Origin: Gemmatimonadota bacterium
GTDB taxonomy: Bacteria; Gemmatimonadota; Gemmatimonadetes; JACCXV01; JAHWKZ01
Reading direction: 5' to 3'
Length of the DNA stretch: 41,066 bases
Assembly: GCA_025931135.1 (NCBI GenBank)
Contig: JAICNR010000004.1
Location: 1 to 41,066 of the forward strand
Part shown: one piece after another, positions 34,031 through 40,327 of the stretch
How the letters are laid out: every line of letters begins with the position of its first letter
How positions within the stretch are numbered: position 1 is the stretch's first letter
The notes under the pieces: generated by a model
Told to the model about the DNA's origin: nothing
The model's database searches: none
Seen by the model: only the letters and a program-made list of their open reading frames with translations
Program-made: the position numbers and the translations under genes

Positions 34031-36022
34031 ATGACCCAGCGAACCTATCGCCTGGCGGCTGTCTGCTTCGCGGACATCGCGGGCTACACCGAGCTCTCCG
34101 CGAGGAACGAGGGCGAAGCAGTGGCGGTGGTCGAGCTGCTCCAGGAGGTGGCGCTCCGGGCCGTCGGAGAGCGCGGAGGCCGCGTCGTCAAGTTCATCGG
34201 CGATGCCGTCCTGGCCGAGTTCACGAGCACGGACGATGCCGTGCGGTCGGCGATCGAGATGCGGGACCGTTTCGCGGCGGAGGCTCGCACGCGTGGGTTT
34301 GGGACCCGCGACGTTCGCGTCGGCGTGCATCTCGGCGACATCGTGACGGCGGCGGACGGGGACGTCTACGGCGACGGCATCAACGTCGCCGCGCGCATCC
34401 AGGGGGCGGCCGAGCCCGGACACGTGTGGGTGAGCGAGGACGTGTGGCGCCAGCTGCGACAGCGTCCGGAGTTCCAGTTCGAGTCGCGAGGCGAGCACGC
34501 GCTCAAGGGCGTAGCCACGCCGGTAGGATTGTATGGCGTGCGATTGGAGCCGTCCGCCCGCGCCGCCGTACCTCCTCGTCCCGCGGCGAAGGCGGAAGCA
34601 AAGACCGCTCCCCACAAGCAGTCGGTGGCGGTCCTTCCGTTTGCGAACATGAGCGCGAACGCCGAGAACGAGTACTTCTCGGACGGCGTCACCGAGGAGA
34701 TCCTTACCCTGCTCGCCCGCATCGAAGGCCTCAAGGTGATCAGCCGGACCTCGATCATGCGCTACAAGGGAGCCGACAAGCCGATGCGCCAGATCGCCGA
34801 AGAGCTGGGCGTCGCCTCCATCGTGGAAGGGAGCGTCCGGCAGGCGGGGCAGCGCGTGCGGATCACGGCCCAGCTGATCGACGCCGCTACCGATGAGCAT
34901 CTGTGGGCCGATCGGTACGACCGCGACCTCGAGGACATCTTCGCCATCCAGACCGACGTCGCCGAGCGGATCGTCGAGGCGCTGCGCGTGCGGCTGACTC
35001 CGAAAGAGCAGGCGCGGCTCGTCGAGCGCCCGACGGAGAACGTGGAGGCCTACCAGTCGTACCTGAAGGGCCGTCACTTCCTGAGTCGGCGGACGGAGGC
35101 GACGCTCCGGCAGGCGATCGAGTGGTTCCGGAAGGCGGTGGCGGCGGACCCCGGGTTCGCGCAGGCCTGGGCCGGGCTGGCGGACACCTTCGCGGTGCTG
35201 CCGAGTTACAGCCCGATGCCGGTGCCGGAGGCGTGCGCCGAAGGGCGCTCGGCCGCTGAGCGCGCTCTGGCGCTCGACCCCGCGCTGGGTGAGGTGCACG
35301 CGGCTCTCGGTTTCTTGGCCCAGAATGAGTCGAACTGGGAGGAGGCGGAGCGTGAATTCCGCTGCGCGCTCGAGCTAGCGCCCGGATACGCCACCGCGTA
35401 CCACTGGTACGGGAACTTCCTGTCCTCGCGCGGCCGGACGGAGGAGGCGCTGGCGGCGCTCCGTCGTGCGCTCGAGCTCGATCCGGTGTCGCTGCCGGTT
35501 CACATGGCCGTGGGGGTCGCCCTCCATTTCGACCGTCGGTTCGACGAGGCGATCGACGTGTGCCGCAAGGCGATCGAGATGGATCCGGGCTACACCAACG
35601 CCCACCAGAACCTCGCCAACTCGTATCTCTGTCAGGGGCGCTACGAGGAGGCCCTGACCGAGTGGGAGATCATCTCTGAACTGAATCCCGCGAGATTTCC
35701 GCCCGAGCTGTTGTCGGAGATCCGGGCAGGCCATGCGTCGGACGGGGAGCGCGGGTTCTGGGAGGCGGTTCTCGAGGGGTTGCGGTCGCGGCCCAAGGCG
35801 CTGGGCCGGGCCTACGACATGCCCCAGGCCTGCGCCCAGCTCGGAAGGATCGACGAGGCGTTCGCCTTGATCGACGTGCTCCTGGTCGAGCGAAGCGCGA
35901 TCGCGATTCAGGTTCCGCGCGATCCGCTGTTCGATCCGATCCGCACCGATCCCCGCTACGAGAAGGTCCTGGAGCGGCTGGGGCTCGGGGCTGACGGATC
36001 GCGCGGCATCAGCCGCCGCTGA
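34031..36022 (+). CDS. Adenylate cyclase-TolB-like-TPR protein
   Basis: A 663-residue protein. The class III cyclase domain (~1-175) has Asp15 in CFADIAGYT and Asp58 in IGDAVLAEF as metal ligands. Lys54 and Asp111 are the adenine-specifying pair, with Asn118 and Arg122 completing the active site. The middle (~200-340) matches the TolB-like/FlgO domain: VAVLPFANMSANAENEYFSD, VISRTSIMRYK and VEGSVRQAGQRVRITAQLID. Four or more TPR units fill ~355-580 (WFRKAVAADPGFAQAWAGLA and FRCALELAPGYATAYHWYG). This order is common in Gemmatimonadota-like genomes, where the role is not settled. The protein is probably cytoplasmic, since no leader is seen. Its end overlaps the convergent MoaD-like gene by 14 bases. 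Confidence 0.93.
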   Translation: MTQRTYRLAAVCFADIAGYTELSARNEGEAVAVVELLQEVALRAVGERGGRVVKFIGDAVLAEFTSTDDAVRSAIEMRDRFAAEARTRGFGTRDVRVGVHLGDIVTAADGDVYGDGINVAARIQGAAEPGHVWVSEDVWRQLRQRPEFQFESRGEHALKGVATPVGLYGVRLEPSARAAVPPRPAAKAEAKTAPHKQSVAVLPFANMSANAENEYFSDGVTEEILTLLARIEGLKVISRTSIMRYKGADKPMRQIAEELGVASIVEGSVRQAGQRVRITAQLIDAATDEHLWADRYDRDLEDIFAIQTDVAERIVEALRVRLTPKEQARLVERPTENVEAYQSYLKGRHFLSRRTEATLRQAIEWFRKAVAADPGFAQAWAGLADTFAVLPSYSPMPVPEACAEGRSAAERALALDPALGEVHAALGFLAQNESNWEEAEREFRCALELAPGYATAYHWYGNFLSSRGRTEEALAALRRALELDPVSLPVHMAVGVALHFDRRFDEAIDVCRKAIEMDPGYTNAHQNLANSYLCQGRYEEALTEWEIISELNPARFPPELLSEIRAGHASDGERGFWEAVLEGLRSRPKALGRAYDMPQACAQLGRIDEAFALIDVLLVERSAIAIQVPRDPLFDPIRTDPRYEKVLERLGLGADGSRGISRR

Positions 36023-36299
36023 CCGCCTGGACGATCGTCAGGCGATCGCCCGCGGACAGCGGGAGCTCTGGCCGCGGAGCCCGAGGTACGAGCCGGTCGT
36101 TGTGAAGGACGAGGACATGCGGTCGCAGCTCACCCGCTTCCGTGAACACGTGGGTCGCGAGCACGGGCCACCGGTTCCGGATCGCGGCGAACGCGGTCCC
36201 CAGGCGGTCCGCCTCGATCTCGACGGCGGAGCGGCCGTCCGTGCAGTCGCGAAGCATGCGGGGCAGCTCCAGCGTCACTCGACCCATCGGTCCCCTCAT
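36009..36299 (-). CDS. MoaD/ThiS-like ubiquitin-fold protein with Gly-Gly end
   Basis: A 96-residue beta-grasp protein. It runs VTLELPRMLRDCTDG, then LGTAFAAIRNRWPVLATHV, VLVLHNDRLV and ends DRLTIVQAVSGG. The terminal Gly-Gly is the hallmark of sulfur-carrier and ubiquitin-like proteins, which are adenylated by an E1-like enzyme. No ThiF/MoeB, MoaE or ThiG is found in the window. ATG 36299 overlaps the propeller stop (ATGA), so the two are made together. A shorter start at 36287 is possible. Confidence 0.88.
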   Translation of the reverse strand: MRGPMGRVTLELPRMLRDCTDGRSAVEIEADRLGTAFAAIRNRWPVLATHVFTEAGELRPHVLVLHNDRLVPRAPRPELPLSAGDRLTIVQAVSGG

Positions 36300-37405
36300 G
36301 CATACGCCGCGGCGCGGACGCAGAGGACGCGGGGAAGACGCGCCGGGAGTCGTCGCCAATCGTCGCCCGCGTCCGCGGACGCGAACACGTCGCCGCCCGT
36401 CGTGCCGAAGTAGACTCCGGTCGGCGCGCGCCCGTCGAGCGCCATCGCGTCGCGGAGGACGCCGGTGAAAACCGGCTCCTCGGCGCCGACGGCATCCCGC
36501 CGCTGCCACGACTCGCCTGCGTCCTTCGATCGCCAGACCGCCGGACGCCCGCCGTCGAAGACCCGGTTCTCGTCGGAGACGAGCGGGGCGACGAACAGCT
36601 CGCCTTCCGGCGACAGGACCATGGGGAAGCCGAAGCGGTGCGGGAGCTCGCGGTCGATCGCCGTCCATGTGCGTCCGGCGTCGTCGCTCCGGAAGACGCC
36701 GCTCGACCGCTTGCCGTCGGGAGTCATCGTGTGGGCGTGGAACTGCATGAATAGGCGGTCCCTGCGCGTCTCGTCGAGGACGATCTTATGGATGCAGAAC
36801 ATGGCGTCCTCGTCGGGCGACCCGGTCATCGTCATCGGGGGGAGCCCCTCGTTCCACGCCTCCCACGTCTCGCCGCCGTCCGTGGTGCCGAAGACCCCGA
36901 CCGCGCTGATCGCGACCCACATCCGACGCGGGTCGTGGGGATCGACGAGGATGGAATGGAGGCAGAGTCCGCCGTTCCCGGGATGCCAATGGGGGCGGGA
37001 AGGGTGTCGCGTGAGCGCGTCGATCTCCCGCCACGAAGCGCCGTCGTCGTCGCTCGCGTAGAGCGCGGCGTCGGCCACGCCGGCGTAGAGTTGTCCGCGT
37101 CCGGTTCCGCGCGCGAGCTGCCAGATTCGAGTCAGCGGATGCTCGGCGGGTTCGTCGGGGGGGCGCAACGGCGTCTGAGTCCACGTCGCGCCCGCGTCGC
37201 GGGTCTCGCGGATCGTGGCGCCAAACGCCTCGTGCGAGGTGCCGACGTGGAGTCGATCCGGATCCGCGGGATCGGGGAGGATCGCGTCGACTCGCCACTC
37301 CGGCAGAAGTGGCTCTCCGATCCGCCACGACCGGCGCCCGTCGTCGGACTGAAACCGATACGCGCCCTTCACCGTACCCACCCACAAGACCACTGGCTCG
37401 GCCAT
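36296..37405 (-). CDS. Asp-box (BNR) beta-propeller protein
   Basis: A 369-residue protein built from repeated strands with Asp-box motifs: SDDGRRSW, RDAGATW, SDDDGASW, TDGGETW, SDDAGRTW, SKDAGESW and SADAGDDW. This S/T-x-D-x-G-x-x-W pattern occurs in sialidases and in Vps10-type propellers. The catalytic Arg triad and the RIP motif of true sialidases are not evident, so glycosidase activity should not be assumed. There is no signal peptide, so it is probably cytoplasmic. It starts on the minus strand and is divergent from the DUF5916 gene. It is coupled to the MoaD-like gene. Confidence 0.9.
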   Translation of the reverse strand: MAEPVVLWVGTVKGAYRFQSDDGRRSWRIGEPLLPEWRVDAILPDPADPDRLHVGTSHEAFGATIRETRDAGATWTQTPLRPPDEPAEHPLTRIWQLARGTGRGQLYAGVADAALYASDDDGASWREIDALTRHPSRPHWHPGNGGLCLHSILVDPHDPRRMWVAISAVGVFGTTDGGETWEAWNEGLPPMTMTGSPDEDAMFCIHKIVLDETRRDRLFMQFHAHTMTPDGKRSSGVFRSDDAGRTWTAIDRELPHRFGFPMVLSPEGELFVAPLVSDENRVFDGGRPAVWRSKDAGESWQRRDAVGAEEPVFTGVLRDAMALDGRAPTGVYFGTTGGDVFASADAGDDWRRLPARLPRVLCVRAAAYA

Positions 37406-37564: not shown

Positions 37565-40327
37565 ATGGCTCGCTGGACGCTCGCACTCGCCGCGCTCCTG
37601 CTCCTGGCGGGCTCCCTACGGGCCCAGACCGCGGAGCGGGCCCCGCCCGCCTCTGCGAATGGAGCCGGCGAGGTCCTTGCCCAGGCCACTCCGGCCGCCG
37701 GGACGGCCGACCACGAACGCCTCGCGCCGGTCGCGCAGGCGATCCGGCTGACCGGGCCGATCGACGTGGACGGCGAGCTGGACGAGCCGATCTGGCAGAG
37801 CGCGCCGGCCGTCACCCGGTTCTTCCAGCGCGAGCCGAACCAGGGCTCTCCGGCGACCCAGCCGACCGAGGTACGGTTCCTGTACGACGACGAGACCCTG
37901 TACATCGGCGCCCGGATGTTCGATTCCCTCGGGGCGGACGGCGTCGTCGGACGGCTCGCGCGGCGGGACTCCGACCCCCCGGGGGACCGCCTCACGATCA
38001 CGTTCGACACGTTCCTGGACCATCTCGGCCAGACCCAGTTCACCGTGAACCCGACCGAGACGCGGGTCGACGCGTACGGGCCCGGCGGGTCGAACCTGGA
38101 CTTCTCGTGGAACCCGGTGTGGAACGCCGAGGCGGAGATCGATTCGCTCGGATGGACCGCGGAGCTGGCGATCCCGTTCGCCCAGCTGCGGTTCCCGCGC
38201 GGCGCGGAGCAGACGTGGGGGCTCCAGATCGAGCGCGAGGTGAGCCGCCTGAACGAGTTCCAGGTGTTCTCGTTCTGGACCCTCGACCAGCAGGGCGGGC
38301 CGTCCCGGTACGGCCATCTGACGGGTCTGGAGATCCCCAACGCGAGCCCCAACCGCCTCGAGCTGCTCCCATACGTTGTCGCGCAGCTCGAGACGAAGGC
38401 GGAGGTCGACGCGTTCGACCCGTTCGCGCAGGACCGCGAGCAGGACTACCGCGTGGGCGCGGACCTGAAGTACCTGCTGACGTCGAACCTGACGGTGTCC
38501 GCGACCGTGAACCCGGATTTCGGCCAGGCCGAGGTCGACCCCGCGGTCGTGAACCTCACCGCATTCGAGACGTTCTTTCCCGAGAAGCGCGAGTTCTTCA
38601 TCGAGGGGAGCGGGCTGTTCAGCTACGGCGGATTGTGGTGCTTCACGTGCAGCAACATCTCGTCGATGGATCTCCTGTTCACGCGCCGGATCGGCCGCAC
38701 GCCGCAAGGCGGGAATCTGGCGTTCCAGGGGGCGGACTATGCGGACGTTCCGGACGCGACGACGATCCTCGGGGCCGCGAAGCTGACCGGGCGAACGCGG
38801 AGCGGAACGTCGCTCGGGATCCTGGGCGCGGTGACGGAGCGCGAGCTGGCGGCGACCGAGACCCTCGAGGGTGAGCGGTCGGAGGCGGAGGTCGAGCCCC
38901 TGACGGGATACCTCGCCGCGCGCGCGCAGCACGACCTGCGGAACGGGGACCTGCAGATCGGCGGCATCGTGACGTCCGTGACGCGGAGCTTCGACGATCC
39001 CGACCTCGAGGACCTGATTCCGAGCCATGCCGAGGCGTTCGGCGCCGACGCGGAGCTGTGGTGGGCCGACCACACCTATCACTACCTGGGGAACGCGGCG
39101 ATCTCCAACGTCGCCGGCGATCCCGACGCGATGCGGCGCATCCAGGAATCCAGCGCGCGGTACTTTCAGCGGCCGGATCGGGAGCACGGATCGAACGGGC
39201 TGTTCACCGACCGCTACGATCCCACGCTGGAGGCGATCCGCGGGTGGGCGATGTACCACCGGGTAGCCAAGGAGGCCGGCGCGTGGCGCTGGGAGAGCTC
39301 CCTGGCCGCGCGGAGCCCGGGATTCGAGATCAACGACCTGGGCTTCCAGACCCGCACGGACTGGCTGTGGCTGCACGGAAACATCCAGCGCCGGTGGACC
39401 GAGCCGACCAGCAAGTACCGGTACCTCCAGGTGAACGTCGGCGCCCAGAACCGCACCAACTGGGACGGTGACCTCGAGGAGCGGCAGCTCCACTTCAGCG
39501 TCTATTCCGAGCTGCCCAACTATTGGGAGATCAGTCAGTTCAACCTCATCCGCCCGTCGGCATTCGACCCCCGCGCCACTCGCGGCGGACCTGTCGTCAA
39601 GTCGCCGGGGCACGGTTTCCACAGCCTGTACATGGCCACGGACTCGCGAAAGCGGTTCGTGGCGTCGATCGAGCCGACCTACACGTGGATCGAGGAAGGA
39701 TACCGGGAGTACGCGCTCTTCTTGAACTTCACGTTCAAGCCGGCCTCGAACATTTCATTGTCGCTCGGGCCGTACTTCGAGCACGGCGAATCTTCGGCCC
39801 AGTACGTGACGACGGTCACGGATGCGACCGCGGAGGTGTTCTACGGAAGCCGGTACGTGTTCTCCGATCTCGATCAGAACACGTTCTCGATGGACACGCG
39901 TCTAGATTGGACGTTCACGCCGACGATGTCGCTGGAGCTCTTCCTGCAGCCCTTCTTCTCGAGCAACGACTTCTCGCGCTTCAAGGAATTCTCCGAGCCG
40001 CGGACGCTGGACAAACTGGTCTATGGCGAGGACATGGGGACGATCGCTCTGAACGAGGGCGTCTATGCGGTCGATCCGGACGCCGCCGGCCCGGCCGCGA
40101 CGTTCACGTTCGACGATCCCAATTTCAGCTTCGCATCGTTGCGCGGAAACCTCGTCTATCGGTGGGAGTACGTCCCGGGGTCGACCCTGTTCGTCGTCTG
40201 GACGCAGGACCGCAACAACGAGCTCGCCGAAGGTGATTTCGATCTGGGACGCGACGTCGACGACCTGTTCGGTACCGGGTCCGACAACGTGTTTCTGGTC
40301 AAGCTCACGTACTGGCTGGGCATCTAG
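37565..40327 (+). CDS. DUF5916 protein with CBM9-like N-terminus, outer-membrane candidate
   Basis: A 920-residue exported protein. A signal peptide at residues 1-20 ends before QTAERAP. Residues ~60-230 form a CBM9/DOMON-like sandwich: DVDGELDEPIWQSAPAVTRF, EVRFLYDDETLYIGARMFD and WTAELAIPFAQLRFP. After it come the DUF5916 motifs VNPDFGQAEVDP, VNLTAFETFFPEKREFFIEG and RRIGRTP. From ~430 on, short alternating strands rich in Tyr/Trp/Phe resemble an outer-membrane barrel. The terminal VKLTYWLGI has the character of a C-terminal strand. ATG 37565 has GGAGG upstream. The family is common in Bacteroidota and Gemmatimonadota; function is not settled. Confidence 0.92.
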   Translation: MARWTLALAALLLLAGSLRAQTAERAPPASANGAGEVLAQATPAAGTADHERLAPVAQAIRLTGPIDVDGELDEPIWQSAPAVTRFFQREPNQGSPATQPTEVRFLYDDETLYIGARMFDSLGADGVVGRLARRDSDPPGDRLTITFDTFLDHLGQTQFTVNPTETRVDAYGPGGSNLDFSWNPVWNAEAEIDSLGWTAELAIPFAQLRFPRGAEQTWGLQIEREVSRLNEFQVFSFWTLDQQGGPSRYGHLTGLEIPNASPNRLELLPYVVAQLETKAEVDAFDPFAQDREQDYRVGADLKYLLTSNLTVSATVNPDFGQAEVDPAVVNLTAFETFFPEKREFFIEGSGLFSYGGLWCFTCSNISSMDLLFTRRIGRTPQGGNLAFQGADYADVPDATTILGAAKLTGRTRSGTSLGILGAVTERELAATETLEGERSEAEVEPLTGYLAARAQHDLRNGDLQIGGIVTSVTRSFDDPDLEDLIPSHAEAFGADAELWWADHTYHYLGNAAISNVAGDPDAMRRIQESSARYFQRPDREHGSNGLFTDRYDPTLEAIRGWAMYHRVAKEAGAWRWESSLAARSPGFEINDLGFQTRTDWLWLHGNIQRRWTEPTSKYRYLQVNVGAQNRTNWDGDLEERQLHFSVYSELPNYWEISQFNLIRPSAFDPRATRGGPVVKSPGHGFHSLYMATDSRKRFVASIEPTYTWIEEGYREYALFLNFTFKPASNISLSLGPYFEHGESSAQYVTTVTDATAEVFYGSRYVFSDLDQNTFSMDTRLDWTFTPTMSLELFLQPFFSSNDFSRFKEFSEPRTLDKLVYGEDMGTIALNEGVYAVDPDAAGPAATFTFDDPNFSFASLRGNLVYRWEYVPGSTLFVVWTQDRNNELAEGDFDLGRDVDDLFGTGSDNVFLVKLTYWLGI

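Follow-up and report, generated by a model that had tools for sequence, protein, structure and literature searches.

Sulfur carriers of the ThiS/MoaD superfamily follow a common scheme. Adenylation of their C-terminal glycine by an E1 enzyme is followed by the action of a rhodanese or a desulfurase, which yields a thiocarboxylate for use by a partner enzyme. Few partners are known for these carriers, and every one of them has defined a pathway. Here we describe a locus in which the partner appears to be a beta-propeller. The locus lies in a 41,066-nucleotide stretch of a Gemmatimonadota genome (assembly GCA_025931135.1, contig JAICNR010000004.1, positions 1 to 41,066; ‘the window’), where a gene for a small MoaD/ThiS-like carrier adjoins a gene for a cytosolic Asp-box propeller. 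The carrier resembles CysO of Mycobacterium tuberculosis (PDB 3DWG; acting with CysM, Mec+ and MoeZ) in its ubiquitin fold, its Gly-Gly terminus and its link to a MoeZ-type E1 with a rhodanese domain. However, the partner of CysO is a cysteine synthase rather than a propeller, and the loci searched for a JAB peptidase gene showed none beside the pair described here. With MoaD–MoaE molybdopterin synthase the locus shares the carrier fold, the Gly-Gly, a MoeB-type E1 and a molybdenum cofactor (Moco) context, but no MoaE is encoded beside the pair. The propeller is of the same family as PDB 3B7F, Reut_B4987 of Ralstonia eutropha JMP134, a structure-only entry solved in 2007 as a ‘putative glycosyl hydrolase with BNR repeats’ without an assigned function. 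We find that propeller and carrier almost certainly act together, and we tentatively propose that they form a sulfur-relay module of Moco metabolism.

The assignment of the propeller to the 3B7F type rests on full-length agreement in sequence and predicted fold, with seven blades. The 3B7F profile match covers the whole protein (E 1e-108), and the AlphaFold2 model (pLDDT 90.2, pTM 0.91) matches 3B7F along its length in Foldseek, with a TM of 0.88 at 33% identity. Six perfect Asp boxes begin at residues 68, 118, 174, 240, 293 and 343; the initial annotation of this DNA, made from the letters alone, had counted at least seven, and a seventh is reached only by including a degenerate box at residues 19–27. 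Its statement that the propeller carries no export signal agrees with a maximal 15-residue mean hydropathy of 0.98 within residues 1–45.

The carrier ends in ...QAVSGG, retaining the terminal Gly-Gly as annotated, and belongs to the ThiS/MoaD superfamily (Pfam ThiS, 31.0 bits against a cut-off of 22.5; 17 of 27 relatives match at E 0.01). It scores below cut-off with NCBIfam SAMP1 (42.5 against 60, with relatives reaching 52.9) and with moaD_arch, and the best solved matches of its profile are CysO and the carrier in 4N6E. The genome encodes a canonical moaD–moaE pair at a separate locus (G000:C81), as do its relatives, which makes the paired carrier an additional one; being neither next to moaE nor the only MoaD of the genome, it does not fit the MoaD of molybdopterin synthase, and it scores 30 bits with Pfam ThiS where the canonical MoaD scores 63. 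The annotated lack of a nearby partner enzyme holds within the window, with moaD–moaE lying elsewhere in the genome. The ATGA overlap of the two genes is literally present, but an in-frame ATG 12 bases further in, behind AGGGG, is an equally plausible start for the carrier, since a sister species (L113) starts at the equivalent codon without any overlap (propeller end 9107, MoaD start 9118). Exact ATGA overlaps are common among other relatives (L114, L116, L120, L133, L190).

A search of 249 Gemmatimonadota genomes with the propeller profile recovered 127 family members in 123 genomes. A MoaD-like gene lies on the same strand within 1.5 kb of 106 of these propellers, downstream in 105, and directly upstream of 3 more, bringing the paired total to 109. 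Several of the 18 unpaired propellers end at contig ends, and most of the others make up one MoaD-less clade. In Actinomycetota the propeller occurs in 74 of 297 genomes, and a MoaD gene is present in the majority of the 40 loci whose context was read. Pseudomonas, Burkholderia, Cupriavidus and Mitsuaria have the opposite gene order, with MoaD first and, in Cupriavidus relatives, directly upstream of the propeller (L161), and one genome of the Acidobacteria (Acidobacteriota) encodes the pair. The alphaproteobacterial, Streptomyces and Anaerolineae members examined encode the propeller alone. Pairing is therefore far beyond chance and recurs across phyla, in both orders and as fusions, which excludes random association and bears out the earlier statement that the pair is widespread: it is a real and well supported module.

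Carriers were collected with an iterated profile, as phmmer with a single MoaD missed most partners, and genes in the loci were called with a simple codon-usage caller, raw clustering of open reading frames (ORFs) being swamped by antisense frames in this high-GC DNA. Apparent absences of the propeller cannot be relied on where scoring stopped at 32 candidates. The first genome scan returned long Asp-box proteins (L008–L082), which were set aside as weakly related and lacking an adjacent MoaD. On a tree of 119 propellers the gene arrangements are strongly clustered, with the label ‘upstream’ changing at least four times on well supported branches, a few gene-caller misses included; the ‘no MoaD’ labels of L126, L159, L196 and L197 are such misses, corrected in the later carrier count. 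Different arrangements also coexist within one genome, G204, whose contigs C51, C53 and C77 (L167) carry three propellers, two paired with MoaD and one beside moeA.

Natural fusions are a further argument for joint action of the two proteins. A single ORF encodes MoaD and propeller, joined behind the Gly-Gly, in three genomes of actinobacteria (L244, L255, L256), and loci sister to these have MoaD upstream, some with one or two residues past the Gly-Gly. In L239 a tail of 25 residues takes the carrier into the start of the propeller. In a model of the L255 fusion both domains are predicted to fold well (mean pLDDT 94.3; pTM 0.82, the relative placement of the domains not being fixed), with disordered residues 83–85 at the joint, which could, on this model, be open to a peptidase. 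Across the 122 propellers read in context, a carrier is present for 98: 87 end in Gly-Gly, 5 have one or two extra residues, 3 are fused, 1 is cut by a contig end, 1 has the 25-residue tail and 1 is a true loss, in Nonomuraea gerenzanensis (L154:7072-7383), where the carrier ends in VLPALA. Of all genes called in these loci, about 7% encode a Gly-Gly end, and the carriers account for most of that share. Whether the Gly-Gly is always kept had been posed as a check on the pair, with its loss in most relatives counting as refutation; of about 98 carriers, only one has lost it.

A second suggested check, for linked E1-like genes, found a MoeB-type E1 with a rhodanese domain at the locus in six Gemmatimonadota genomes. 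Propeller, MoaD and ThiF-rhodanese form a single gene run in G194 (L190) and G096 (L191), the MoaD stop overlaps the E1 start in G236 (L173), although propeller and MoaD are joined there, and the E1 gene is divergent and adjoins the pair in G038, G074 and G246 (L120, L200, L202). The E1s of L190 and L200 exceed the NCBIfam cut-off for the molybdopterin-synthase adenylyltransferase MoeB. No E1 was seen in the window’s own genome, which is only 81% complete, and a same-genus neighbour has one. In G236 the truncated propeller is joined out of frame to the MoaD tail (L173:5780-6624), through a deletion or an assembly error. A role in defence was considered and dropped, as PADLOC gave no match for propeller or carrier and the E1 only cross-matches E1–E2 models. 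Other Gemmatimonadota loci (L177, L178, L179, L180, L181) hold a second ubiquitin-like system consisting of a CysO-like carrier, a JAB peptidase, a ThiF-rhodanese E1 and a pyridoxal phosphate (PLP) enzyme, with the carrier fused to the E1 in L178–L180.

The strongest functional clue is molybdenum. In the MoaD-less clade (support 100 on the tree), the propeller gene overlaps or directly adjoins moeA in five genomes; two of these loci also contain mobA, and three contain fdhD. In three genomes of the clade it overlaps or directly adjoins yqeC, which scores above the TIGR03172 cut-off. MoeA, MobA and FdhD have roles in Moco synthesis and delivery (PMC13197769), and two further papers tie YqeC to selenium-dependent molybdenum hydroxylases (PMC2276186, PMC11448449). 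Among the 297 Actinomycetota genomes, in statistics that ignore phylogeny, a strong MoaE is encoded by 73 of 74 propeller genomes versus 94 of 223 others (Fisher 3e-21), and by 48 of 49 versus 72 of 105 when only genomes with a listed size of 2.2–4.5 Mb are compared (p 1e-5); the sole propeller genome without a strong MoaE has three MoCoBD genes. Molybdenum hydroxylases are likewise commoner among MoaE genomes when the propeller is present (67/73 versus 62/94, p 7e-5). Propeller genomes are thus almost a subset of Moco genomes. The initial annotation had proposed a sulfur-transfer or protein-tagging pair; a real and widespread module, a conserved Gly-Gly and linked E1 genes in relatives are borne out, and the fusions speak for joint action of the two proteins. 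Molybdenum had been left out. Near the propeller–yqeC pair lie genes without a known Pfam family (L117:3987-4751, L123:9951-10940), possibly further members of this context.

If the pair is a sulfur relay of Moco metabolism, the MoaD-like protein would be a dedicated ubiquitin-fold carrier, distinct from the MoaD of the cell’s molybdopterin synthase. Its Gly-Gly would be adenylated by a rhodanese-bearing E1 of the MoeB/MoeZ type and become a thiocarboxylate, probably through the same E1-rhodanese protein, and the cytosolic propeller would receive or position the charged tail. Carrier and propeller together might then act like XdhC/FdhD, supplying sulfur to a late Moco intermediate or to a molybdoenzyme that is being assembled, or protecting either of them. 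That the tail docks on the propeller can reasonably be guessed by analogy, as fold relatives have been solved with bound peptides: Ycf48/HCF136 and the sortilin Vps10 domain are Asp-box propellers too, Ycf48 solved with a D1 peptide and sortilin with neurotensin, albeit at 12–18% identity and a TM of about 0.6 or less to the window propeller, and as exported or luminal proteins. The evidence on Moco points to a late step, the stage at which XdhC and FdhD use sulfur supplied by a cysteine desulfurase to sulfurate the cofactor (PMC10609526). The likeness to XdhC/FdhD lies in this proposed step, before or at insertion (PMC10609526), and in the fdhD genes of the MoaD-less clade; they differ in having other folds and in drawing sulfur from a cysteine desulfurase instead of a thiocarboxylate carrier.

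The propeller’s predicted binding or active site is marked by the invariant His206, Gln221, His223 and Arg318 together with the near-invariant His150; Trp140 is likewise invariant in the 119 propellers, and conservation of these residues suggests such a site. We also considered Cys204 as a catalytic persulfide, as it is invariant in the first 36 sequences; since it is Asp in 8 of the 119 propellers, a persulfide on Cys204 cannot be general, and it was dropped as a general mechanism. A bolder version of the relay, which we regard as doubtful, would make it a third route of terminal sulfur insertion into molybdenum enzymes, in which an E1-charged ubiquitin-fold thiocarboxylate docks on a cytosolic propeller holding Moco or the apo-enzyme, which passes the sulfur on, and replaces the desulfurase persulfide of XdhC/FdhD; in some actinobacteria carrier and acceptor would then be one polypeptide, whose Gly-Gly a peptidase must open.

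Several observations count against a Moco relay. No Moco gene was seen next to MoaD-paired propellers in the loci read, and it is the MoaD-less clade, whose function may be a different one, that has the moeA and yqeC contexts. The co-occurrence with MoaE takes no account of phylogeny, and MoaE genomes without a propeller are common (94). The E1 linkage was seen in only six genomes, all of one phylum, and the alphaproteobacterial, Streptomyces and Anaerolineae examples have no adjacent carrier.

The first of these points favours a rival in which the charged carrier supplies sulfur outside Moco, for a different small molecule, an RNA or an amino-acid pathway, and the propeller is the enzyme or binds the substrate, as in CysO/CysM or the 4N6E carrier with BexX. 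The proximity of the carrier profile to CysO and the 4N6E carrier, and not to MoaD, fits this view, and MoeZ-type E1s serve several carriers. It is nevertheless unlikely, if a serious contender, as it has to set aside the co-occurrence with Moco and the sister clade’s placement beside moeA or yqeC, no gene for a conserved metabolic enzyme adjoins the pair across the phyla examined, and relatives already own the separate CysO-like carrier with its JAB, E1 and PLP proteins.

Somewhat less probable again is protein tagging, with the carrier as a SAMP/Urm1-like modifier that is activated by an E1 and attached to lysine, and the propeller as its substrate or substrate receptor. In eukaryotes propellers often serve as substrate receptors, the best NCBIfam match is SAMP1 despite falling below cut-off, and the residues past the Gly-Gly and the MoaD-GG-propeller fusions resemble precursors that need a peptidase. 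Yet a search of the loci turned up no JAB gene next to the pair, the rhodanese domain on the linked E1 is typical of sulfur transfer, and the Moco link is left unexplained.

The pair could also be a scaffold without sulfur chemistry, the carrier serving as a docking fold with a Gly-Gly used for binding only and the propeller holding a peptide or metal. The peptide-bound structures of Ycf48 and sortilin, the fused forms that have no free Gly-Gly unless cut, and the one genome that kept the pair despite losing the Gly-Gly would all suit this, but we consider it improbable given a near-universal Gly-Gly in proteins otherwise so diverged (32% mean column identity) and the same-operon E1 of some relatives. 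Finally, a reading of the propeller as a sialidase or a different glycoside hydrolase with an incidental carrier neighbour, which its BNR/Asp-box repeats, the GH74 xyloglucanases that follow 3B7F among its fold matches, and the database names of its relatives (‘sialidase family protein’, ‘exo-alpha-sialidase’) might imply, is very improbable in view of the missing export signal, a score of 61.8 bits with the curated NCBIfam glycosylhydrolase model, far below its cut-off of 175, and the conserved pairing, order reversal and fusion with the carrier.

Carrier and E1 relays are known, and the propeller partner, the fusion and the Moco setting look undescribed. A 2006 survey of ThiS/MoaD neighbourhoods (PMC1779556) mentions no propeller, BNR or sialidase partner, a survey of Asp boxes that used 3B7F does not mention MoaD, and full-text literature searches, whose coverage excludes most subscription journals, returned no paper on the pair. 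With the Moco relay as the working proposal, a family named exo-alpha-sialidase in databases becomes a testable partner of a ubiquitin-fold sulfur carrier, with molybdenum as the target of the test, and the fusion with Gly-Gly at its joint offers a direct handle on how carrier and acceptor meet and on possible release by a peptidase.

Table 1. Positions in the window of the propeller–carrier pair and of the residues discussed
Feature	Position	Strand	Description	Basis
Propeller	36296..37405	minus	369 aa, cytosolic seven-bladed Asp-box beta-propeller, PDB 3B7F family	ORF and translation; Pfam BNR, Sortilin-Vps10
MoaD/ThiS-like sulfur carrier	36009..36299	minus	96 aa (start at ATG 36299) or 92 aa (start at ATG 36287), ends in SGG	
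Gly-Gly codons, carrier C-terminus	36012..36017	minus		Sequence
ATGA overlap, propeller stop/first possible MoaD start	36296..36299	minus	Alternative ATG 36287 behind AGGGG	
His150 codon	36956..36958	minus		Kept in 116/119 relatives
His206 codon	36788..36790	minus		Invariant in 119 relatives
Gln221 and His223 (QxH) codons	36737..36745	minus		Both invariant in 119 relatives
Arg318 codon	36452..36454	minus		Invariant in 119 relatives

The pair is flanked in the window by two larger genes. On the carrier side, positions 34031-36022 encode an adenylate/guanylate cyclase domain fused to TPR repeats. This gene and the MoaD-like gene lie on opposite strands, and their 3′ ends overlap by 14 bases. On the other side, and divergent from the propeller, positions 37565-40327 encode a DUF5916 protein with a CBM9-like start, probably an outer-membrane protein, whose long ORF could extend back across the propeller gene on the other strand.

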